A stretch of DNA of 64,000 nucleotides, from assembly GCA_009760855.2 (NCBI GenBank), contig WPIO01000377.1, forward strand, positions 1 through 64,000. Reading direction: 5' to 3'. The notes under the pieces were generated by a model, which was given only the letters and a program-made list of their open reading frames with translations, was not told where the DNA came from and did not search any database. The position numbers and the translations under genes are program-made. Positions 2,605 to 43,985 of this stretch are shown piece by piece. Positions within the stretch are counted from its first letter, which is position 1. Every line of letters starts with the position of its first letter. This DNA comes from Cristatella mucedo (Eukaryota > Bryozoa > Phylactolaemata > Cristatellidae).

Positions 2605-3735
2605 AGATATCCTCGTGCCAGCCTTCGAGCACCTCAAATTCTCTCCACTCACTTGCCTGCAAATGCACTGATGACATGTCCGCACTATGGATAGTACTCA
2701 AATTTTCTAAAACTAAGCGATAATAAAACTAACTTACCAGTTATAGGAAAACCCGGTGTGATTCAGAGATTGGAAAGGCTGACTCTCTTCAAATTGGCTC
2801 TGCCAGCATATCTCCAGTTGAATCAGCCTCGAAAATTTAGGTGCCTTTATTTTCCAAAGCGACCTCTCGTTAGACGACCATATCAGCTCCACAGTCAAAT
2901 CTGCCTATATTTTCAGCTTCATAACATTGCTAAAAATTCGGGCTTGTTTAGATAAGGATACCCACGTCCAATGTTGGTCCATGCATTCGTGACATCTCGT
3001 CTCGACTTCTGGCAACTCACTGCTTACTGGCCTACCAGCATGTGCGATCAGGCGATTTTCAGCTGGTGCCAAACTCTGCAGCTAGCTCGTCTGTCGGCGG
3101 TGGGGTGTCTGTCGTGAGTCGTATCAATTGCCACATCACTCCACTTCTCGCCGAACTGCACTGTCTACCAGTCAAGCAACGGATGCACTTCAAAGGTTTT
3201 GTCACTCAATTTGATGTCCCCTTCATTCTATGGCCCTCCCAATTCATATCTCTCATATCTACTCCCACATCAGTCCCAAGCATCGTACCACCCGCCTTTT
3301 TCGGAATCCAACAGTCCTCCAAATACCATCGCACAAACCTTAAATCCTGTGGATACCGTGCATTTAGTTCGTATGCTCCCCAAAGCCTGGGACCTCCCTC
3401 CCGACCTGCGTCACGAAACATCCCCTGACCTGACCAAATTTAAAAAGAACTTGAAAAAAACACCTATTTAGGACAGCATTTAGTTGGTTCCCTGTGATTC
3501 GTCCCTTGATTGTGCTTATGCGTGCTGACCTGTGCATGCTGCCACTAACCACATTTGCATGCTGACCCTGTGTATGTCACGCCCTAACCATTGTTATTCC
3601 TTTTGTTTGCTTTTCAAGCATGATTTTACTTACTCATTCAATTGCATTTCACTTTGTGAGCAAATGTTAAGTGCCTAGAAAGAGATTAAGTTCTCTGAAG
3701 GCGCTGTATCAATTGCACTATTCTTATTATCCTAG
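2605..3735 (+). mobile_element. LINE-A fragment: end of RT ORF plus 3' UTR
   Basis: Second-longest LINE-A copy. In shifting frames it carries the region after the RT catalytic motif (SNSLHSLACKC-like, then NFLKLSDNKTNLPVIGKP) and the block 'FVTSRLDF'. The CR1/L2-type C-terminal block follows (CHITPLLAELHCLPVKQ, then 'FSSYAPQSLGPPSRPASRN'). It ends with the 3' UTR and hairpin GTGCCTAGAAAGAGATTAAG..GGCGCTG and an ATT-rich tail. Several frameshifts and stops make it a dead copy. The order of motifs matches the minus-strand copy at 28562-30102, which confirms that the blocks belong to one element. Confidence 0.85.
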
Positions 3736-6756: not shown

Positions 6757-6867
6757 TATAATTATATAATTATATACAATTAATTATATATAATACTATA
6801 TAGTATATGAATTTATTTGTATATAATGTCTATAATTATATAATTCAGTATATAATATAATTATATA
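6757..6867. repeat. AT-rich microsatellite-like block
   Basis: About 110 bases of nearly pure A/T made of repeated TATAATTATATAATT words. It sits directly at the 3' (tail) end of the reverse-oriented SINE-1 copy at 6868-7006, as do AT-rich tracts beside other SINE-1 copies. Confidence 0.8.
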
Positions 6868-7006
6868 ATTCATTTGTATAGCGCCCTGAGAGAACCTAAT
6901 CTCTATTCAGGCGCTTCACATCATACCTCGGGGCTCAAGCACGCGACCTCAGTGGAGCCAGACCTGATCGGGGCGAGGGCAACCTTAACCACTGGACCAA
7001 ATCAGC
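6868..7006 (-). mobile_element. SINE-1 copy (tRNA-headed, LINE-A tail)
   Basis: Read on the minus strand it begins GCTGATTTGGTCCAGTGGTT (box A-like tRNA head). It then carries a box B-like GCGTGCTTGAGCCCC and ends in the hairpin tail GAAGCGCCTGAATAGAGATT..TCTCTCAGGGCGCTATAC. The head resembles a class II tRNA such as tRNA-Leu, and the tail matches LINE-A. It is a typical polymerase III-transcribed, LINE-mobilised SINE. This copy is nearly full length. Confidence 0.85.
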
Positions 7007-8169
7007 TTCGTGCGGTCACAGAAGGAGAAGCATTCTATTTATTAATTTGAGCTCTAATTTAGTCTGACTTTAAAACTGCTTATTGCCATTTCCCCAACAG
7101 CGCCATAAGGAACGCAGTGTTAATTAAAAATAAAATAAAAGAATTTCCTGTACGTTAGCTGGCACGGTAAGCGATGTCATTCAGACTCAATACAAGTATA
7201 TAGCAGCATAACGCTCAGAGCCACAACTATCCGACTGCCACAGGCCGTCGTCTCAAAGAGAGCTTCTGCAGCTAGGTTTCTCTGCTTGTAGGTCCAATTA
7301 GGTCGGAAGTCATGTAAATTGGATTATATAAAGAAAGTATAATGATGTAACAAATGCCTGCTTCTTTGGCGGCTACGTCAAACGTGATCTCCAGTTCAAA
7401 GTCATTGGACCAAGCTCAAAAATCATGAAAATCGTGGGCATTGCATCGTTCTACTAACTTATTCTTAACTCAGGGTCACGAAATTTACCAAGTTTTACTA
7501 TGCTGTTTAATATACTTTTTAAGTTTATTAGTGGTTCTAGGTCTAGCGATGCCTATTAACTAGCGAACAGCTTGTATCTTCTATTTGCAGTTGCGAATGC
7601 CAAAACAAAGCGACGAGTAACAGCTCTATATCATTGCACCGTTCCTGAATTAAATGAAGACGAGTGTGCATATCGCCACCTGCTCTCAACCCTCAGTTTG
7701 TTTTTACTTCTCGCAGAAGGTCGGAAACCAAGTATATCTTACTGCGTGGATTCAAGGAATTCTGTTGGTAATGGCAAGGAAATTTTTTTCTGCTCTGATC
7801 GTCAAATCGTGTGCCGCGGGCTGTTTCATTGTAGCCAGCAGCGCCAAATGCGACACCCGAGATATGGCTATAGAGTCATTTAGTATTCTACGTGCTCCGT
7901 TTTTACATGCACAAAGAGGGTGCCTAATGACTGTTGCTTAGCCCACTGCGTTGGGACTTCGCTGCCTGTACACCTTGAGATGACTTGAGAGAATCACTCA
8001 GCGTAATTTGTCAGCGCCTATCTCGTTAGAAAAAAAACGCCCCGCGCTACTCACAGCATTTGCTACGTCCATGCAAATTATTCTTTTTCGCGCTAATGTG
8101 TGCTGACACTACTTGCTCTCACTTACCAATTGACCCGCTTCCTCTGCAGCACATGTAAGGTGCCTTTAA
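7007..8169. other. Unassigned sequence
   Basis: No gene was recognised. Two overlapping plus-strand open frames (7572-7883 and 7654-7941, about 100 codons each) show no family pattern, and I treat them as chance. Confidence 0.4.
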
Positions 8170-8560
8170 ATAATACTAATAACAATGCTAATAGTAATAG
8201 AATAATAATAACACATTATTTATAGCACCCCTCAGAGAACTTAATCTCTTTCTAGGCACTTTACATTTTACTGCAAAGGAAGCATGATTGAATGGTTAGA
8301 GGTAGCCACGCCCACTAAACAGTACGCTTAACATGACTGTAACATGCACAGGGTCAGCTTGCCAGCCAGCATGTTTAGCGGCAGCGTTCATAGTGTCAGC
8401 ACTCATAAGCACACAAAGAAACGAATTACGTGGACCCACTAGATGCTGTGGGTAAATAGATGCATTTTAAGTTTCCTTTTAATTGTGGTCAAAGTCAGGG
8501 GATGTCGTGACGCAGGTCGGAAGTGAGTTCCAGGCTTTGAAGTTCTCTTTAGTGCGCTTT
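8170..8560 (-). mobile_element. LINE-A 3' end fragment
   Basis: Reverse-oriented. It starts with the ATA/ATT-rich tail, then the hairpin (AGCACCCCTCAGAGAACTTA..TTTCTAGGCACTTTACA), then the 3' UTR. It enters the ORF end at about 8470-8560 (GTCAGGGGATGTCGTGACGC and GTGAGTTCCAGGC, the reverse complement of the conserved C-terminal coding block). Truncated 5' at about 8560. Confidence 0.85.
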
Positions 8561-11372: not shown

Positions 11373-11500
11373 GCCGTGATGGCCCACCGAAGAATGGAGG
11401 TTGCTCTTCACGACCTCGGTCCCGTGGTCAAGGGTTTGAATCCCTTGGGCGGGTGATCCTGTATTGCCGCTGCGAGTGGTGGTGATAGCCTTTAAGGATC
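11373..11500 (+). mobile_element. SINE-2 copy
   Basis: A second tRNA-headed SINE family. The head reads CCGTGATGGCCCACCGAAG, then GGTTGCTCTTCACGACCTCGG. Box B-like GGGTTTGAATCCC follows, then the body TGATCCTGTATTGCCGCTGC and GTGGTGGTGATAGCC. The same order of words, reverse-complemented, is found at 22988-23128, 40020-40162 and 57765-57893. Twelve bases downstream a SINE-1 copy begins in the same orientation. Confidence 0.8.
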
Positions 11501-11512
11501 GCACTGATCCGC

Positions 11513-11640
11513 ACTGGTTTGGTCCAGCGATTAAGGTTCTAGCCCAGACTGAGGGCTGCCCGAGGTCGTGGGCTCGAGCCCGGTGGCATACGTGAAGGAG
11601 CGAAACCCCTGAATCAAAAAGAGGGCTACTAAATAAGCCA
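11513..11640 (+). mobile_element. SINE-1 copy
   Basis: Starts ACTGGTTTGGTCCAGCGATT (box A-like). It carries GAGGTCGTGGGCTCGAGCCC (box B-like) and GTGGCATACGTGAAG, then a decayed tail (CCTGAATCAAAAAGAGGGC). It follows SINE-2 immediately, forming a two-SINE composite. Confidence 0.8.
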
Positions 11641-12479: not shown

Positions 12480-12870
12480 CATAATAATAATAATAATAAT
12501 TCACTTGATAAAGCGCTTTCATAGAACTTAATTTCTCTCTAGGCGCTTTACATTAGCTGTAAAGTGAAATGCAATTGAATGGTACGTAAAAATCATGCTT
12601 GAAAAAAAACAAACAAAATGAATAACATGGTTAGGGGTGACATGCACAGGGTCAGCATGCGAATGTGGTAGGTGGCAGCATGCACAGTGTCAGCACGCAT
12701 AAGCACATCAAGGACGAATCACAGGGACCCACTAAATGCTGTCCTAAATAGGTGTGTTTTCAAGTTCTTTTTAAATTTGGTCAGGACAGGGGATGTTCTG
12801 ACGCAGGTCGGGAGGGAGTTCCAAACTTTGGGAGCGTACGGACTAAATGCACCGTCTCCAAAGGATAAGA
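12480..12870 (-). mobile_element. LINE-A 3' end fragment
   Basis: Starts with (ATA)n at 12482-12500, then CACTTGATAAAGCGCTTTCATAG and GGCGCTTTACATTAGCTG, then the full 3' UTR. It runs into the coding end on the minus strand: a frame with FGDGAFSPYAPKVWNSLPTC is open at 12719-12970. This copy is relatively well preserved. It lies between the candidate exons at 12181 and 13530, consistent with an intronic insertion. Confidence 0.9.
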
Positions 12871-13838: not shown

Positions 13839-13904
<66 letters not shown>

Positions 13905-13923
13905 GCAGCAGCAGCAGCAGCAG
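13839..13923 (+). repeat. (CAG)n trinucleotide repeat
   Basis: About 28 CAG units with one CAAG interruption near the 3' end. All three forward frames and the reverse frames stay open through it (poly-Ala, poly-Ser, poly-Gln, poly-Cys, poly-Leu), so the ORFs seen here are artefacts of the repeat. It begins 68 bases after the candidate donor site at 13771, so it is more likely intronic than coding. Confidence 0.95.
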
Positions 13924-14039
13924 CTATATATCGGGAAAACGGAGAGGTGAGTGCGTGAGTGAACAAGTGCTCTCGATAATGCTGGCGCTGACCGTTCCAG
14001 GAGCCTCGCTAATGTCTGCAATCGCTGTGTGGAAATAAA

Positions 14040-17984: not shown

Positions 17985-18575
17985 CTATATGTGAGCGTCG
18001 CAGTTGCCACATCACACCACTTCTCACCGACCCTGTACTGGCTATCATTCAAGCAACGCATCGACTTCAAGGTTTTGTCGCTCACTTTTAGGTCCTTTCA
18101 TTCTTTGGCTCCAGCCTACCTATTAGATCTACTCCCCCACCAGGCTAAGCATAGTACCATCCACTTTTCGGAGTCTAACTGTTTACGTATATCTCTTACA
18201 AAACTCAAATCTTTTTGGAGACCGTGCCTTTAGTTTCGTATGCTCCTAAAGTCTGGAACTCAGTCCCTACTTATGTCACGACATCCCTTGACTTAACCAC
18301 TTTTAAAAGAAATATGAAAAAACGCACCTATTAAACCGCACCTATTAAAAACGAACCTATTTATCACAGCATTTAGTGGGTCCCTGTGCTGAAACAGTGC
18401 ATGCTGACCCTGCATTTCATGCCTAACCATGCGATTCTTGTTGTTTATTGAGGATGCCACTACTAACCATTCAGTTGTGCTTCCTTTGCTGTAAATGGAA
18501 AGCGCCTAGAAAGATATTGTGTTCACATTGGGGTGCTTTATCAAGTGTTTCATCATTATTATTGTTATTATTATA
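17985..18575 (+). mobile_element. LINE-A C-terminal ORF end plus 3' UTR
   Basis: Opens in frame with CHITPLLTDPVLAIIQATH-like sequence (two frames), then VLSLTFRSFHSLAPAYL and LLPHQAKHSTIHFSESN. It continues through the conserved tail block, the 3' UTR and the hairpin (AAGCGCCTAGAAAGATATTG..GGGTGC), and ends in an ATT/ATTATT tail. The C-terminal frame at 17991-18233 is open for 80 codons, which suggests moderate age. Confidence 0.88.
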
Positions 18576-18658
18576 TGTATATATTGTGAATGTGCCCTTA
18601 TATGAATATCTTTTCAATACCGGCATGCGTATATACAAATAAGGTATATACAAAATGA

Positions 18659-20370: not shown

Positions 20371-20655
<285 letters not shown>

Positions 20656-20975: not shown

Positions 20976-21739
20976 TAATTAGGGCTGTTCCAAACTTTCG
21001 CTTCGGGGCTGAGCAGTGAGGCAAGTAGCGATTCGGTATTATGCATAATAGTGGTTGTGTGTTTCCAAATGCGAATGGTGGTGACGTGACAGCTGTTTCT
21101 TCAAACGCGAGTGCTAAAATGACTGAACTGAAGTTGCTCTTTCATTAACATAATACACATATCGGGTTTATTTCGCTGGTGAATGACACAAAATTACTCG
21201 CCAAATAACTGCTTAATTTTAGTTTTATTAAGTTAAATTAAATTAAATTTTGCTTACAGTTTTACATTTTTTAATCTTTTCTTTAGATCTATTCTGTACA
21301 CTGCATGTATTAAGCCGAATAGGTAGATGTTTAAATTACTTGTATTCGGCAGAAAAAAAAGCGAAAATTAACTAGTCGGTACAGCTCTAGTAGTATTTAG
21401 CAATGACAGTTTCTCGAGTAAGAAGCACAGTACAATTCGCAAGAAAGCGGCGATGGCTGTAAAGAGATGGCGGATGTCGAGCTTCCTTTTAAATTTCGTC
21501 GAGTAAATGGTTGGCTTGATGTAGATTGAGTTCCACGTTTCGGAACCATGGGTACTGTAGGTATGGTCTCAAAGGGGGCCGCGGACTGCACTGAAATCTC
21601 CTGCTAGGGTTGGGCCTAATCGCTGCATTGCACTGGAAAGAGGTACATCAAGGTGAAAACGGTTGTACACGCCAGAAGGACTGAGTGATACATTATATCA
21701 AGTGCTGTCGGAAGGTCCAACACAGAACTGGAGGACTCT
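20976..21739. other. Unassigned sequence
   Basis: No gene was recognised. Short TTAAATTAAATTAAATT repeats are at about 21230-21248. Confidence 0.4.
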
Positions 21740-21942
21740 ACCTAGACCAGCGGTTCTCAACCTGTGGGTCGCGACCCCTACGGGGGTCGAACGACACTTT
21801 CACAGGGGGTCGCCTAAGACCACCGGAAAACACGCACTTCCTCATTTGCAAACAACAATTTTATGGTCGGGGGTGGCCAAAACATGAGAAACTTTACCTA
21901 AGGGTAGCGGCATTAGGAAGGCTGAGAACCACTGACCTAGAC
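21740..21942. mobile_element. SPIN-like hAT MITE with 8-bp target duplication
   Basis: The element is 21748-21934 (187 bases). Its ends are CAGCGGTTCTCAACCTGTGG on the left and the inverted CAGTGGTTCTCAGCC on the right. It is flanked by perfect 8-bp direct repeats ACCTAGAC (21740-21747 and 21935-21942), the hallmark of hAT transposition. Internal words (GGTCGCGACCCC, GGGTCGCCTAAGACC, GCGGCATTAGGAAGG) match my memory of the non-autonomous SPIN ('space invader') family. That family was described as horizontally transferred among tetrapods, an insect, a planarian and a pond snail. No transposase is encoded. The hAT assignment is firm. The SPIN assignment rests on recognition, not a search. Confidence 0.92.
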
Positions 21943-21944
21943 TC

Positions 21945-22985
21945 ACATTCCTGAGAAGGTAATTAAATACTAGCAGAAGTGCTGACTACGCAGCAGCGTG
22001 ACTAGGTCCAAGTCCTGAGTAGAATTACCTTGCCAGGTTCAATATTTCAATAGATTTTAGCTGGTCTCCCAATTCTTGCTATAGTGTCTTTGCTGGGATT
22101 ATGAGGGAAACTGGGTGTGAATGTCAACAAAGTTCTCCACCTGCACAGACATTGTATGCGAAGCCTAAATGAACGCACGAGCAGCTGTAGAATCTCATCG
22201 AATGACTGAAAGTCGCCAATCTGCATTGCCCACATAAACACAAATTCTGTCTAGAAAAAAGTAAAGTCACAAAGCAGTTCATTCCACCTGTAATTCACAC
22301 GCGTTTGTATCACTCTAGGTTGTAGTTCACAGTTCCACATCGACGCCAGAAGAGTACGTGATCGCAGGAAGTGCTCAGAACTTCAGCCACTGTCATCGTG
22401 CCGACAGCAATGTGACGATAAGCATTAGGCCAGCTACAGCGGGAGGTGCTGGCGATGACCATACCGTTAGAAGGCTGTCAATTCCCCCAGAGAGCATGCC
22501 GGTTGAGCACTGCTTTGTCCTGCATGCGCTACAACAGTGCTCTGCCCGAGCGGTGTCGCTGCGTGTCGCCGTGTGCAGCCACCCAATCGATGTGCCGTTG
22601 CAGTCAAGCCCGTGGACGACATAGTGGTAAGAAAGCTCAACTCGTCCCACGGTGGTACTCAGCTGGAGATGGAAGTTTGAAGGCCACGCCTACATTCATT
22701 GCATTTTGGTGTACCAGCTTCGAGTACAGCTTGCCAGGTTTGGTGCTTTCGGGCGCACTCGGCGATTGCAATGACAGTATGAATGGCAAATGAAAGATAG
22801 CGTCTCAAAGTGTAGCAAATGCTTCGAATCTATTCGCTGCATCGAACCTTTTCATTACGTCTACCGCGATGTGCTTTTACAGTCCTTTTTTGTGCTGAAG
22901 TATGAACTTGAGCAGAAGCTATAAGCCTATAAGCCTTTAAAATAAATAAATACTAGCTGATTTAACAGCCTATTTTTGTATAGCG
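21945..22985. other. Unassigned sequence
   Basis: No confirmed gene. Overlapping open frames on both strands at 22358-22793 (up to 115 codons) lie in a CpG-containing, GC-richer patch without a recognisable motif. Short CTATAAGCC repeats are near 22920-22940. Confidence 0.4.
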
Positions 22986-22987
22986 AC

Positions 22988-23128
22988 AGAAAAATCCTTA
23001 GCGGCTATCACCACCACTTGCAGTGGCGATAAAGGATCGCCCACCACAGGATTCGAACCCATGGCCTCGGGGCGAGGTCGTGAAAAAGCAAACCACCTTA
23101 CCTAGTGAGCCATTATGGATCACCGCCT
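22988..23128 (-). mobile_element. SINE-2 copy
   Basis: On the minus strand: GGCGGTGATCCATAATGGCT, CACTAGGTAAGGTGG (box A region), TTTTTCACGACCTCG, GGGTTCGAATCC (box B), GATCCTTTATCGCC and GTGGTGGTGATAGCCGC. It has the best box B match of the family. The tRNA of origin was not determined. Confidence 0.82.
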
Positions 23129-28561: not shown

Positions 28562-30102
28562 TTATATAATAATAATAATAATATTGCACTTGATAAAGCG
28601 CCCTCAGAGAACTTAATCTCTTTCTAGGCGCTTTTACATTTGCTGCAAAGTGATACGCCAATAGAATAGTAAGTAAAATCATGCTTGAAAAACAAACAAA
28701 ATGAATAACATGGTTGGGGGTTACATGCACTGGGTCAGCATGCAAATGTGGTTAGTGGCAGCATGAACAGTGTCAGCACGCATAAGCACATCGAGGACGA
28801 ATCACAAGGACCCACTAAATGCTCACCTAAATAGGTATGTTTTTAAGTTTCTTTTAAATGTGGTCAGGTCAGGGGGATGTTCTGACGCAGGTCGGGAGGG
28901 AGTTCCAGGCTGTGGGAGCATACGAACTAAATGCACGGTCTCCAAAGGATTTAAGGTTTGTACGAGGTATTTCTAGACTGTTGGATTCCGAAAAGCGAGT
29001 GGTACGATGCTTTGCCTGATGGGGTAGTATCTCTGAAAGATAGGCTGGGAGCCATAGAATGAAGAGACCTAAAAGTGAGCGACAAAACCTTGAAGTCAAT
29101 CCGTTGCTTGACTGGTAACCAGTGCAGGTCGGCGAGAAGTGGAGTAATGTGGCAACTGCGACGCTCACGACAGACAAGCCTAGCTGCAGAGTTTTTGCAC
29201 CAGCTGCAACCAGCTGCCCAATCGCCTGATCGCACATGCTGGTAGGCCAGTAAGCCCCAGCAGTGAGTTTGCAGAAGTCGAGACGAGATGTCACGAAATG
29301 AATGGACCAACTTGGACGTGGTATCCTTATCTAAAACAAGCCCTAATTTTAGCAATGTTTGTGAAGCTGAAAATAGGCGGATTTGACTGTGGAGCGATGT
29401 ATGTGGTCGTCTAACGAGAGGTCGCTTTGGAATATGACACCTAGATTTCGAGCTGATGCAACTGGAGATATGCTGGCAGAGCCAATTTTGAAAGTCAGGC
29501 CTTTCCAATTTCTGAATAACACTAGGTTTGCCCATAACTAGTAAGTTAGTTTTATCATCGTTTAGTTTTTAGAAAATTTGCTGCCATCCATGATCGGATG
29601 TCATCAATGCATGCAGCAAGTGAGTTGAAAGAATTTGAGGTGCTCGAAGGCTGAGAGGGATCAAAGCAAAGGTACAACTGAGTGTCATCCGCATAGAAGT
29701 GAAAGCCTAGATTGTGCTTGGCAATCACATCAGCGAGAGGGAGAGTATAAACGGTGAAAAGGACCGGACCTAGCACAGAGCCCTGAGGTACTCCATATTT
29801 TAGAGGTACTTCGATGATCTTTGTCCATTCACATCAATACTCTGGAGTCTTCCAATGAGATAGGACGTGAACCACTGCAGACCAGTGCCAGTGATGCCCA
29901 GGCGAGATGAGACGGCGCTCTAGAAGTACTTTGTGATCGATGGTATCAAAAGCTGCCGAAAGATCGAGCAAAACAAGAAGAGACACTCTACCCATGTCTG
30001 CATTCCTAAGTAGGTCGTTGTATGCCCGAAGCAATGCTGACTCTGTGGAGTGATTAGCTCTAAAGCCAGACTGGAACTTACTAGCAAGGTGTGAGGTAAT
30101 TT
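28562..30102 (-). mobile_element. LINE-A: longest copy, with reverse transcriptase and 3' end
   Basis: Best copy of the CR1/L2-like non-LTR retrotransposon. Read on the minus strand it begins (5'-truncated) at a block SKFQSGFRANHSTESALLRA. It then has LLVLLDLSAAFDTIDHKVLL (RT motif with catalytic Asp) and LGPVLFTVYTLPL. The catalytic box FHFYADDTQLYL has YADD at 29684-29695. WMAANFLKT and NLLVMGKP follow, then FVTSRLDF-like sequence. The C-terminal blocks are CHITPLLADLHWLPVKQRID and AWNSLPTCVRTSP. The 3' UTR, hairpin and an ATT tail close the element. At least three frameshifts interrupt the ORF. No endonuclease domain is present. The family makes DNA by target-primed reverse transcription. 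A possible short target duplication (ATAAATTA on both sides) is weak. Confidence 0.95.
28570..28635 (-). other. Conserved 3' hairpin of LINE-A and tail
   Basis: On the minus strand: stem AAGCGCC / GGCGCTT enclosing stem AGAGA / TCTCT with loop TTAAGT, then TATCAAGTGCAATATT and ATT repeats. The same structure closes the SINE-1 copies. It is the probable recognition structure for the LINE reverse transcriptase, as known for stringent-type LINE/SINE pairs. Confidence 0.75.
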
Positions 30103-30330
30103 ATGATTTTTTGGGATTTCATTTTTATTCTGCATTACATGATTGATTATTTGTCATTTTCAAGGTATGTCAATCTGTGATTCAGTTTTTAGCATCCCAT
30201 CTGAAGCCCCCTCCGAGCATCGAGTTTTGTACCTCGGATGAATATTTCTCTCACGTGACTCACGAGCATAGCCCCACAAAGACCACACTCTCCACAAATT
30301 ATTGCTATAAATATAAGTAAATAAATAAAA

Positions 30331-30467
30331 TTCATTGGTATAGCGCCACCAATAGAACTTTTATCTATATTCAACGTGCTTCTCGTATGCCATGGGGGCT
30401 CGAGCCCACGACCTCGGGGGGGACCTTGATCGGGGCGAGCACCTTAAACCACTTGGCCAAACCAGCG
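30331..30467 (-). mobile_element. SINE-1 copy with covarying hairpin
   Basis: On the minus strand: GCTGGTTTGGCCAAGTGGTT (box A-like), GTCGTGGGCTCGAGCCC (box B-like), ATGGCATACGAGAAGCACG, then a tail hairpin. Its inner stem is ATAGA / TCTAT instead of the usual AGAGA / TCTCT: both sides changed and pairing is kept. An A/T-rich stretch follows the tail. Confidence 0.88.
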
Positions 30468-30774: not shown

Positions 30775-31107
30775 GGGCTAGAGTGCGTAAAATGGAATTT
30801 GAAAAAAGACTTCGAATCACAGAATTTAGTGAGAAAACGTAAAGCAGTCTCGATAGCTGTTCAACCCATCAAGGCTGATCCATGTTGCACGGACGTGCTC
30901 CTGTGTGCCTCTGAGGTTAGCCACCTCTGCCAGCCTTTCAGCACCTCAAATTCTCTCAGCTCCCTCGCAACTTGTACTGTTCGCCCCTCAGATGAGCAGC
31001 AAAGGTTGATCCCATTTATTGACGGTCAACCATTGTTATAGCTTCAGGCAAAAGCTAGCCACTCAGAAAGTTGAAAGCCTAATCTTCGGAATTTGCTGCC
31101 ACCAGAA

Positions 31108-31410
31108 TAACCATAATACATTTGATGTAGCACCCTCAGAGAACTCACTCTCTTTCTGGGCACTTTACATTTGCTGCAAAGGAAGCACGAACGAATGGTT
31201 AGTGGTAAACATGCTTCAATAAACAGCAAGAATAACATGGTTAGAGATGATATGCACAGGTTCAGCACGCAAGTGTGATTAGTGGCAGCATGCACAGTGT
31301 CAGCACGCATAAGCACATAAAGGACAAATCACTAGGGCCCACTAAATGCTGTGATAGATACGTTTCTTGTTTCTTGTTTTTTAAATGTGGACAAGTCAGA
31401 AAATGTCGGG
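31108..31410 (-). mobile_element. LINE-A 3' end fragment
   Basis: Reverse-oriented hairpin (AGCACCCTCAGAGAACTCAC; TTTCTGGGCACTTTACATTT) and full 3' UTR with CATGGTTAGAGATGATATGC and AGCACGCATAAGCACA, ending near the ORF terminus (AAATGTGGACAAGTCAG). Confidence 0.88.
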
Positions 31411-31427
31411 ACGAAAGTCATTGCTAC

Positions 31428-32284: not shown

Positions 32285-32706
32285 ACATGCTACCTACAAA
32301 CCTTAAATCTTTTGGAGACCGTGCATTTAGTTTTGTATCCCCCAAAGCCTGGAACTCCCTCCCGACCTGCGTCAGAACATCCCCTGACCTGACCACATTT
32401 TAAAAGGAACTTAAAAACACACCTATTTAGGACAGCAGCATAGTCGTCGGTCATTGTGGATTCGTCCTTGATGGGGCTTATGCGTGCTGATACTGTGCAT
32501 GCTGCCACTAACTACATTTTGCATGCTGACCCTTGTGCATGTCACCCCCTAACCATATTATTAATTTCGTTTGTTTTTTCAAGCATGATTTTACTTACCA
32601 TTCGATTGCATTTCCCTTTGCAAAAGCAAATGTAACAGCGACTAGAGAGAGATTAAGTTCGTCCGAGGGCGCTTTTATCAAGTGCCATTATTATTATTAT
32701 TATTAC
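32285..32706 (+). mobile_element. LINE-A 3' end fragment
   Basis: Begins in the ORF end (FGDRAFSFVSPKAWNSLPTC in frame), then the 3' UTR. The hairpin has an insertion (AACAGCGACTAGAGAGAGATT; GAGGGCGCTTTTATCAAGTG), and a (TTA)n tail ends the copy. It lies between the CpG-rich stretch and the exon-like region. Confidence 0.9.
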
Positions 32707-34493: not shown

Positions 34494-34915
34494 CGTCTGT
34501 AACTCCCACAAAGTCAATAAGTACCAGGACCGTGTGGGGTGTTACGCAGGAGAGTTTTGTATAGCGAACTCACAGCCCAAGCGGCTTTTGGTATGCATTC
34601 GGTAGCCAGCAGACTTCGTCTCACACAACAAAGAGAAAGTGAGAAGCACAACAGAGTCAGGAGAGCAGTTGAGGTAGTGAGTAGCATGGAAGAACCAGCT
34701 CAGGACCGCTGAAAAGGATGAGCCATAGTCGGCATTAGTAGGAAAGTAGTTGTCGTTGCGTAAGAAATTGTGGAAGCGAGTTTCCACAGTCCTAGGACCT
34801 GCAGAGCTAAAGCTTCTGTCGCCAATGGTCCCTTTAAGCAGAGGAATGGATCAGCTAATTTATTGTCCACACACAGGACCTGAGTGAGGGCGCAGAAGAG
34901 GCTGAAACTGGTGCA
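34494..34915 (-). mobile_element. LINE-B 3' end with open C-terminal frame
   Basis: On the minus strand it begins AGTTTCAGCCTCTTCTGCGC. It continues as GGCGACAGAAGCTTTAGCTC and GAAACTCGCTTCCACAATTT, with an 81-codon open frame (FLRNDNYFPTNADYGSSFSA, then THYLNCSPDSVVLLTFSLLC). It ends in GCTATACAAAACTCTCCTGC and a GGAGTTACAG-type tail. The reading frame is the same as in the plus-strand copy at 40960-41360, which shows the protein end is real. The 'GDRSFSSAGPRLWNSLP' block places it with CR1/L2-like LINEs. Confidence 0.85.
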
Positions 34916-35330: not shown

Positions 35331-36790
35331 TGAAGCATTCGAACACCACGATCCACCGCACCACACAACCTTACGAAAGCTACCCAGCCTGGTAAAACAG
35401 TCTAGACTCTCCGCAAGCATGCCATCTAAGCGTATAAAGAGGCTTACTCTTACAGGAGGAGAGTTCGAATTGGGGCAGTTGTAAGTGACTTCCTCCACCC
35501 AACCACCTACAGGGAGTAGAAAATGTTCTGATAAGGTTCGGTGCTGCACGTTTTGGCCACGTACTGATAAGCGTGGCGTGCGGCTTCCTCATCCGGTCAG
35601 CAACAAGGCCGCAAACGCAGCGAGCGTAACGGTGCCAGTCTCAGCCCACGCGAGACGAATACTGACGACGCCTGAACCTTTTAGCACGGCGGCAACACGC
35701 AATAGTTGCTGCACCAATTCGCGCAGGTGCGCCGAGTGTGTAGCCGGTGCGCGGCAGCGACGAATAGCACCCTCTATCACACATATCAGTGTTCGTATTC
35801 ATAATTTAGATTAGTCTATTTGTCAGGCAGCGGACGGTTGCAGGCGTTTCAACGACGGCCGTGACTTACCACCGACGGTCCTCTGGCCTAGAGCTAAAAT
35901 CGGCACTCCCAATGCCAATGCCGAATCCTGAATTAAAAACTGTCCACCTATTTATGGCGCCGGCTTTTATTATGCTTCAGTGATAGATTATCGCATAAGT
36001 GTGAATAATTATATCATGGCCGCGAGATGATGAAGAAAAGCCCTGGCGGGAAAGGATCACGTGACCACATGGCCATTCACTGATTCCTTCAGCCCAATCA
36101 GCGGGAGGACCCAGCTGCAAACCAAAAGCAATAAGCACTCTCCCCTCCCTGGTTTTGGCTCCTAGGTCGGGCGACGTGATGGCGATTCCACGCCCATAAC
36201 GCCTGACGGCGTTTTTTTTGCAGAGCAATCGCGCCAAAGTCATCCCTGGTAAGATAGAACGGGTATTGGTAATATAAACTTACCTCGAGCAGACGCAGCC
36301 TGTCATTTTCCGCCGTATTCTCTCATACTTCTCCTTCATGCCTGTGCCTATTGAGCTGGAAGGCTAAATTTGCCTTAAAGGCTAAAAAGATTACTAATCC
36401 CAATGGTGGGAGCTCGGGTTTTTATCCAGGGGGGCTCATTTTAAATCCAGGACTATTATAAAATATACTTTTTGTACTAATATATATTATAATGTGTAAT
36501 TTCCCCTCATATCCTTATTAAATTTTATTATTTATAATATTATTTCCCGCTAGTATTATAGCCCAGTAACATTGGGCTTACGACAAACATAGCTATACTA
36601 ATATTTTTCCTATAAGATGAAGTTTCTTACGGGCTGACGCATCAATGCAGCCGCCCACAGGGCCTGGCCTACTTCGTACACTAGCTGATCTGGTCTAGCA
36701 GGTCCGTTATTCCAGCCTGCTCGCGCCCAGCCGTCGCTCCTTTCTGCTGGTGGTTTGGACATAATTAGCGGTCCCATTTCCTCTCGCTTG
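35331..36790. other. Unassigned, with a possible E-box/CCAAT patch
   Basis: No confirmed gene. At 36058-36066 lies ATCACGTGA (CACGTG E-box) and at 36095-36102 CCAATCAG, within a CpG-rich patch (36050-36200). This could be a promoter, but no gene follows on either strand that I can identify. A/T-rich DNA is at 36450-36610. Confidence 0.3.
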
Positions 36791-36794
36791 AAAG

Positions 36795-37230
36795 GACAGT
36801 TGGCGACAGAGCCTTTGTGAGCCTCTGGCCAGGTCCGCAGTACCTTGTGGAACCCCTCGCTTCCACGATTTCGTTTACGGCAACGATACTCTACTCTTCG
36901 CTGCACCCTGCCACTAATATGGGCCACATCTTTTTCAAGGCGGAGTCCGCCCGTTTTGTATCTGTCTACTCAGTTTCTATGTTTAGGGCTGGCACTACCA
37001 GTCTTGGGAATGAACGCCGGTCAAATATGGCTCTTTCCTTATCTCGGCTATGGCTTTAGTCCCCACCTAGGTTCTCCTGTTGTTTGCTTGAGACACGAAT
37101 TCTGTTGTGCTACCGATGGCGTACGGCGAAAGCCTCCGTTATGCTGGTGACTGGCACTATGAGTCAAAACGTCTTCCTGAGCTAACACACCGCAATGGTC
37201 TTTATGACTTTGTGTCTGATTTACAGAGCT
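36795..37230 (+). mobile_element. LINE-B 3' end fragment
   Basis: GGCGACAGAGCCTTTGTGAG, GGTCCGCAGTACCTTGTGGA and CTCGCTTCCACGATTTCG follow the LINE-B ORF end. The copy continues to CGCAATGGTCTTTATGACTT at the tail. It is frameshifted but parallel to 40960-41360. Confidence 0.75.
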
Positions 37231-38599: not shown

Positions 38600-38912
38600 G
38601 TGTCCTACACACAACTCACCTATTTATGACAGCATTAGTTAGTGGATCACCTGGGATTCGTCCTTTGTGTGCTTATCGCGTGCTGACACTGTGGCATGCT
38701 GTCCTTCTACCCCCCACTTGCAATGCTGACCCTGTCGGCATGTCACCCCTAACCATGGTTTAATCATGCTGGTTATCAAGCATGATAGCCATTCACCATT
38801 CGATCGTGTTGTTTCCTTAGCAGCAAATGGGAAGCGCCAAGAAAGAGATTGAGCTCTCTCTGAGGGCGCTTTTATCAATGTGTTGCTATTTTACTAGTAT
38901 TATTAGAAATCT
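38600..38912 (+). mobile_element. LINE-A 3' end fragment
   Basis: ACCTATTTATGACAGCATTA (ORF end), GGGATTCGTCCTTTGTGTGC, the 3' UTR, the hairpin AAGCGCCAAGAAAGAGATTG..GAGGGCGCTTTTATC, and a TATTATTAG tail. Confidence 0.9.
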
Positions 38913-40959: not shown

Positions 40960-41360
40960 TCACTAGTTTCAGCCTCTTCGCGCCCTCAGATCCCGTATGG
41001 ACCATAAATTAGCTGTTATATTCCTCCGCTTAAAGACCGTTGGCGACAGAAGCTTTAGCTCTGCAGGTCCTAGACTGTGGAACTCGCTTCCACGATTCCT
41101 ACGCAACGACAACTACTCTACTGCTGTCAGCTATGGCTCACCCGTTTCAGCGGTCCTGAGCTGCTACTTCCATGCTACTCACTATCCTAACTGCTCTCCT
41201 GACTCTGTTATGCTTCCCACTTTCCCTTTGCTGCGTGAGATGAAGTCTGTTGGATACCGAATGCGTACAGAAAGCCGCTTAGGCTGTGAGAGCGCTATAC
41301 AAAACTCTTCTGGGTAGCACTCACATAGTCTTAATGGTTTTGTGGAGTTATAGACAAAGA
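40960..41360 (+). mobile_element. LINE-B 3' end with 106-codon open C-terminus
   Basis: Open frame 40997-41317. It holds GDRSFSSAGPRLWNSLPRFL (the CR1/L2 'RxWNSLP' block), then NDNYSTAVSYGSPVSAVLSC, THYPNCSPDSVMLPTFPLLR and a terminal block ending ESAIQNSSG. It is uninterrupted and matches the minus-strand copy at 34542-34787 residue by residue in long stretches. It is followed by the tail AGTCTTAATGGTTTTGTGGA. 5'-truncated and lacking RT. The best reference for LINE-B here. Confidence 0.88.
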
Positions 41361-42352: not shown

Positions 42353-42486
42353 GAGCTGGTTTGGTCCAATGGTTTAGGTACTCGTCCCGACCAGGATCTG
42401 GCTGAGGTCTTGGGGCTCGAGCCTCGAGGCATATGTGAAGAGCCTAAATAGAGATAAGTTCTCTTGGGCGCTTTACAAATAAATTA
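42353..42486 (+). mobile_element. SINE-1 copy, full length
   Basis: GAGCTGGTTTGGTCCAATGG (box A-like), GTCTTGGGGCTCGAGCCTC (box B-like), GAGGCATATGTGAAGAGCC, and a tail hairpin with AGAGA / TCTCT (AATAGAGATAAGTTCTCTTG, then GGCGCTTTACAAATAAATT). An A/T-rich tract follows. Confidence 0.9.
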
Positions 42487-43985
42487 TATTCATATTTATA
42501 TATATTAGTATTATTTGCGTTTCAGCATGCTCACACTTCATCATGTGACCTTAAAATGCCAGCTTCTTGTGTTGCATCATCATCGTTAGCTTAGCAATGG
42601 CAGACAGGAATTTCCGGAAACTGAAAATGGTGGAATTATTAGTACCTTGGTGGAGAATTCCGTGGCTGAATTGTCCGTGCCGAAATGTTGATGACCCAGT
42701 CGACCCAAATGAGCAGCCCCGCCAATGAAATCTGAATTCACCGTGTGCGTAGATAAACAATTTAGGATTACAATACCTTTAAAGTACTTAACACTCATCG
42801 ATATTTATTATTACTGAAACAGGACCACACTAATTCAACGTAGACCACCTAAAATGGACGTGCTTTGCACTTTTGGTAACGATCGCGTATCGTGTAAAGC
42901 AGATCTAGCTTATTATGAAATAGGACCAACTTTATACCTATAACATATTACTATATTTTATCATCACTCACGAAACGCACTCTCACTCAATTTTAGCGGT
43001 GCTCAATACTCCCGAGAGGCTTTGACGGATGTAGGGCCGAAGATAGTGAGCTCGCACACCAGCGAGGTACAGTTTATTTCGCGCTCAGCAATGGACCCCG
43101 TCGTCGGTGACGGCGTATCATCTACCGGTAACTACTCGATTGTCTGGTCGTATTGACCGCCAAATCTTTCAAATAAATGCCATTCTTTGCTTCTGTGCAA
43201 CAGTAAATGTTACTTGCCTGGATGGAAATGCATGCTTCGTCTGTAGATACTGGGAAATCGCACCTAGCGGAGTCGTGCGTGATTAACCTACCATGCAGCC
43301 ACCAGCCCTCCCGGCGATAATGGAAACGAGACCGTGGACGATCAAGGTGATATTCAACAAAGAAACTATGATGTTACTTTTCAAACTGGATGCACAATTG
43401 GTAGCCTGAAGAAGCACCTGGAGACGCTTACGGGTAGGGAGCAGTGAGCGGTCGCAGTCCTTTCTACGCCTGCATTGTGCGCCAGCCATGCCGAAGGTCT
43501 CAGCAGACTCCGTGGTTTCTCAAAAATTGCGTCAGATATTTTCCTCAACATTTATCACGTACTAGAAGATGCGGCTGGGCCACTAAACGACTGTTTCTAG
43601 AAACTCTCCTCCCTCCACCAAGAGCGAGCTTCTGGTATTTTGCCGTATCACGCCTTCACTATCGCATCTCGCCATCACGTTCATTACCTCGCGAGTTAGT
43701 GAGGCACACACCATCCACAATCAGTATGCGCTCACGTCGTTGAAACTGCGTGTCGAGTCAGAGTGCACGGTCCGTGAGTGAGAAGCAGAAAAAGACACTG
43801 AGCCTGTGCCGTCGTGGTGAATATTGCCGCTGACTTGGTCTTTACATGCAGTGTATCAAGTCACGTGCTTTAATGCTAAAGCTGCAGCGGTGGTTCCCCT
43901 CGAGGACTCAGCAAGACGATTTCGGCTCCTGTGGTGCTTAGTTTCGCTGCAGTTCACTGGTCTCGGCTCAAGTGTTCTCCTCTAA
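42487..43985. other. Unassigned sequence
   Basis: No gene was recognised. A 99-codon plus frame at 43444-43743 lacks any motif I know. Confidence 0.4.

Follow-up and report, generated by a model that had tools for sequence, protein, structure and literature searches.

A 187-bp element lying between two identical copies of ACCTAGAC has been identified in the window, the whole stretch of 64,000 nucleotides of DNA considered in the current analysis. The explanation that best accounts for the observations as a whole, and one that we consider probable, is that the element is a miniature non-autonomous hAT copy of the Buster branch, most likely belonging to the SPIN group, which has arisen as an internal-deletion derivative of a full-length transposon.

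Structure of the element and its target site

The structure of the 187-bp element is real and is confirmed at the level of individual bases, as are the matching ends and the perfect 8-bp duplication that the sequence-only reading had described. The two copies of the duplication are identical at 8/8 positions, and the inverted ends, CAGCGGTTCTCAACCT compared with reverse-complemented CAGTGGTTCTCAGCCT, agree at 13 of 15 or 14 of 16 positions. The similarity of the ends stops past 16 bp, the identities over longer stretches being 14/20 and 17/30. The features of the element and their coordinates are listed in Table 1.

Target site duplications of 8 bp are described as a defining feature of the hAT superfamily (PMC11008031) and the terminal inverted repeats of hAT elements as short, of about 10-25 bp (PMC3942097). 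Both features are present here in the form of the 8-bp duplication (8/8) and the 16-bp inverted ends (14/16). The target consensus of TcBuster is given as nnnTAnnn in a report that also places SPIN in the Buster family (PMC3499496). The duplication, ACC-TA-GAC, fits this consensus, and as a central TA is expected by chance in 1 of 16 cases the fit may be taken as support for the Buster branch and not as proof of it. The Ac branch of hAT, whose target consensus is nTnnnnAn, has been set aside, the second base of the duplication being C and not T.

It is extremely improbable that unrelated bases merely happen to resemble a pair of inverted ends bordered by a duplication. A scan of the window that uses no knowledge of hAT sequences, and in which the intervals considered were 60-3000 bp long, bounded by exact, non-simple 8-bp repeats and provided with inverted ends of 16 bp, revealed three intervals with at least 11/16 end matches, among which the 187-bp element alone has at least 12. 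In 300 dinucleotide-preserving shuffles of the window the best match was at least 12 in 32 cases, at least 13 in 4 and 14 in none, so that ends and duplication together as observed were reached by 0/300 shuffles; the duplication also obeys the Buster target rule. In favour of chance it may be said that the ends are imperfect (14/16) and that the end pattern taken singly is the weaker evidence: CAGYGGTTCTCARCC, searched at up to 2 mismatches, is found in the window only at the two ends of the element, both exact, and 5 of 100 shuffles likewise contained two such matches.

Table 1. Coordinates of the 187-bp element, its target site duplications and its repeats within the window
Feature	Position	Strand	Remarks
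Left 8-bp target site duplication, ACCTAGAC	21740..21747	.	Fits nnnTAnnn; from the sequence and the published target rule (PMC3499496)
SPIN-like non-autonomous hAT element (MITE)	21748..21934	+	187 bp, GC 53%, 11 CpG
Left terminal inverted repeat, CAGCGGTTCTCAACCT	21748..21763	+	14/16 match to the other end
GGGTCG copies 1 (+, 21766-21771) and 2 (-, 21772-21777), jointly the palindrome GGGTCGCGACCC	21766..21777	+ and -	Candidate transposase-binding repeats (putative function)
Subterminal GGGTCG copy 3	21784..21789	+	
Subterminal GGGTCG copy 4	21807..21812	+	
GGTCG of the right side	21865..21869	+	Shorter version of the repeats on the left side
Right terminal inverted repeat, CAGTGGTTCTCAGCCT	21919..21934	-	Read on the - strand
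Right 8-bp target site duplication, ACCTAGAC	21935..21942	.	

Coding capacity, subterminal repeats and probable relationship to SPIN

Four of the listed open reading frames of at least 30 amino acids overlap the element, each of them crossing one of its ends and the longest comprising 89 codons. No Pfam match at an E-value of 0.01 was obtained in the two scanned stop-to-stop frames over the element (76 and 89 amino acids). A transposase gene could not be accommodated in the element, which, being devoid of coding capacity, is therefore a non-autonomous DNA transposon (MITE); the hAT MITE proposed in the sequence-only reading is supported both by the structure and by this absence of coding capacity. 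The stop-to-stop frames of the window that are at least 58 amino acids long and pass a complexity filter, by which simple-sequence frames were dropped, number 362, and the Pfam scan at an E-value of 0.01 covered the 300 longest of these (at least 62 amino acids). No hAT domain was detected at that threshold among the 300 frames and no source of transposase was found there. The single copy in the window noted earlier also holds: blastn with a word size of 7 reveals no second copy in the window, the only matches being of 11 to 16 bases with E-values of 1.4-4.8. About 500 bases flanking the element on each side have no match elsewhere in the window at an E-value of 0.01.

The hexamer GGGTCG is represented by 4 copies within the element, both strands considered, against 0.05 expected from its count in the window, and all the copies lie within the left 65 bases; this ratio is descriptive, five motifs having been counted that were picked after the sequence was read. 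Short repeats near the ends are the usual binding sites of hAT transposases. As single-stranded DNA the element folds better than most shuffled sequences (z -2.68, with 3 of 200 shuffles as good), and the centroid pairing involves chiefly its termini together with the GGGTCG region on the left. The possibility of a foldback element was weighed, and the folding has not been taken as a separate function.

A mechanism may be proposed from established hAT biology. Transposase supplied from another locus of the host genome would attach to the inverted ends and to the subterminal GGGTCG copies, the element would then be excised and pasted into an nnnTAnnn target, and repair of the staggered cut would give rise to the 8-bp duplication.

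The comparison sequence used for the family assignment is what we take to be the URR1/SPIN-type consensus of murine rodents, in an uncurated version written down after the window had been read and possibly biased toward it. To this uncurated consensus the element aligns from end to end, with 161 of 186 ungapped columns identical (87%), and outside the 16-bp ends 130/154 columns are identical. The alignment score is 219. In 500 controls, in which the interior bases were shuffled and the ends kept, the scores averaged 25.6 and did not exceed 56.5. By hand count the identity to the uncurated consensus is 71/74 columns over the first 75 bases and 66/78 over the last 78 bases, the parts in which the element is like this version of URR1. 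It differs from it in lacking a counterpart to 39 of the 225 bases of this version and in that its middle 34 bases match at 24/34 positions only across several gaps. Such uneven identity would be expected of two MITEs that had each lost a different internal part of the same autonomous transposon.

We are fairly confident that the element is a member of the SPIN group, an assignment that would follow from the target rule together with the uncurated consensus. The SPIN-like character suggested by the sequence-only reading is supported by the target rule and, as a lead short of a database test, by the alignment to this consensus, which runs on into the interior, where that reading had seen SPIN-like words; the family label itself depends on the uncurated consensus. 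Features shared with the SPIN non-autonomous elements (hAT, Buster/Charlie group) include the nnnTAnnn 8-bp duplication, the small size and, in the uncurated version of the SPIN/URR1-type consensus, ends and interior that are similar to those of the element. Some features are less readily accommodated by a SPIN-group MITE, namely the lower similarity of the right part compared with the left, the confinement of the GGGTCG copies to the left side, the failure to detect a source of transposase in the frames scanned, and the want of a second copy in the window that would show past mobility of the family.

Three other systems may be likened to the element by description. OC1_Das_NA, the OposCharlie1 MITE of the Tasmanian devil, is a non-autonomous hAT of 192 bp, near the 187 bp of the element, and is described as thought to be a product of internal deletion (PMC3621081). 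TcBuster shares the Buster family and the nnnTAnnn targets as they are described (PMC3499496) and differs in being autonomous and derived from a beetle. The hAT of Biomphalaria glabrata is comparable in being a SPIN-like element described as resident in an invertebrate (PMC5440852).

Age of the insertion and its possible origins

The sequence-only reading had regarded the insertion as recent on account of the intact duplication and the well-kept ends, and a recent date is compatible with the duplication. The probabilities that both 8-bp copies (16 sites) remain unchanged are, by simple arithmetic, 0.72, 0.44, 0.19 and 0.07 at 2, 5, 10 and 15% divergence respectively. A recent insertion is therefore weakly supported, because a perfect duplication is expected to persist in 18.5% of cases at 10% divergence and in 44% at 5%.

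The GC content of the window is 45.7%, and the ratio of observed to expected CpG is 0.83 in the window, 0.82 in the element and 0.87 in the 1-kb flanks. This ratio is near 0.2 in mammalian DNA. With a ratio of 0.83, the DNA of the window is unlikely to come from a mammal, whether as host or as contaminant.

SPIN or SPIN-like elements have been described from a number of hosts, including galago, murine rodents, opossum, tenrec and vespertilionid bats (PMC5857283), the painted turtle, with 385 elements (PMC4054807), and the insect Rhodnius prolixus, and movement of SPIN linking vertebrates with an insect has been reported (PMC11614815). In the snail Biomphalaria glabrata, a hAT present in about 1,000 copies is described as sharing significant identity with SPIN; the genome is described as being without intact transposases, and its DNA transposons as not being recent invaders (PMC5440852). 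With SPIN or SPIN-like elements already reported from Rhodnius and Biomphalaria, an invertebrate host alone would therefore be no first, and the present element is probably a further example of an already reported kind, SPIN or SPIN-like.

Two accounts of how the element came to be in its host are about equally likely, and each of them is tentatively put forward. It could be a MITE from one of the ordinary hAT families that are inherited vertically in the host clade, sharing the ends and some of the interior with SPIN. The snail hAT, with its roughly 1,000 copies, is an instance of a SPIN-like family that has settled in an invertebrate genome (PMC5440852), and the match to the uncurated consensus, at 87% of ungapped columns, falls short of near-identity; this same match, however, spans nearly the whole element and extends well beyond the ends, which argues against a vertically inherited family. 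Alternatively, horizontal transfer could have brought SPIN into the lineage of the host, as has been published for other lineages. The similarity to the uncurated rodent-type element is high and yet the CpG ratio of the surrounding DNA (0.83) is not mammal-like, and the reported movement of SPIN between vertebrates and an insect (PMC11614815) provides a precedent. Against transfer it has to be considered that, with a single copy, age and subfamily distance are not distinguishable. SPIN may also have invaded, on a separate occasion, a lineage so far missing from the list of hosts, be it an invertebrate or some other non-tetrapod, the element being a trace of that invasion and of an internally deleted MITE subfamily peculiar to it; this would seem a rather unlikely outcome.

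If the host lies outside the reported lineages, the element would extend by one branch a well-known example of DNA transposons that cross between animal phyla, and a vector or habitat in common might be suspected. If a SPIN-like family is a settled resident of the host, as described for the snail (PMC5440852), the element would be just another ordinary copy.

Exact patterns of 20-21 bases taken from the ends of the element gave no match in GTDB genomes or in IMG/VR, collections of prokaryotic and viral sequences that are uninformative on animals, and a distant blastn of the element against phage and plasmid records gave no match either. A 17-mer scan of IMG/VR brought up one contig (L001), in which the best match comprises 22 bases with 21 identical (E-value 3e-05 within that contig) and two further short pieces elsewhere on the contig match the element at an E-value of 0.19. 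Given the search for a 17-mer in so large a collection, this match has been taken as chance and not as a relative.

Repeats and genes in the surrounding window

A self-comparison of the window reveals 62 repeat pairs at an E-value of 1e-8, which fall into several families with LINE 3' ends being prominent; at least two families of short repeats bear words like those of tRNA promoters, as judged by eye. The description of the window in the sequence-only reading as otherwise full of LINEs is a loose one: LINE ends are present, and the self-similar bases at an E-value of 1e-5 amount to 8,977 of 64,000, part of them LINE. The LINE 3' ends, presumably L2-like, are situated at 28566-29653 (-), 2619-3730 (+), 12481-12866 (-), 31104-31419 (-), 32295-32705 (+), 38613-38906 (+), 17991-18576 (+) and 8189-8539 (-) and are pairwise about 66-89% alike. 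Before the final stretch of these ends, the motif GGCGCTNTATCAA is found in two of the three that were read and GGTGCTACATCAA in the third.

A family of short repeats is located at 6849-7007 (-), 30310-30466 (-), 42354-42506 (+), 20441-20544 (+) and 11511-11597 (+), its members being 74-78% alike pairwise. By eye, words resembling A and B boxes, such as TGGTCCAGTGG and GGCTCGAGCCC, can be recognised in this family, and four of its five members have a LINE-like tail. It is probably a tRNA-derived SINE using the 3' end of the LINE. A second pair of short repeats, at 11407-11499 (+) and 22994-23084 (-), is 82% alike and has a GGTTCGAATCC-like B box. A longer repeat, about 400 bases in length, occurs in inverted orientation at 34495-34913 (+) and 40961-41355 (-), the two being 83% alike, with a weaker third fragment at 36753-36886 (-).

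The patterns of the LINE tail and of the SINE gave no match in IMG/VR. A search of the literature for sequence words of the element, the LINE tail, the SINE and the LINE found no paper, which does not imply that the element has never been published.

Among the 300 frames of the window scanned against Pfam, RVT_1 was identified in two (best E-value 7.5e-09), reverse transcriptase being the only credible protein family, and no recognisable host gene was found. A match to DUF1427 in one frame (0.0095) has been taken as chance, and a match to SR-25 in a frame of CAG repeats (0.00015, with 21.9 bits against a cut-off of 40) as low complexity. No match at the gathering level of Rfam was obtained over the whole window, one match in 21700-21980 had an E-value of 0.94, and no tRNA gene was detected in the window by ARAGORN.

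A CAG repeat at 13839-13924 consists of 28 copies with a 97% match. Long AT repeats are also present in the window, and one of them, at 20521-20651, runs unbroken for 131 bases about 1.1 kb from the element.
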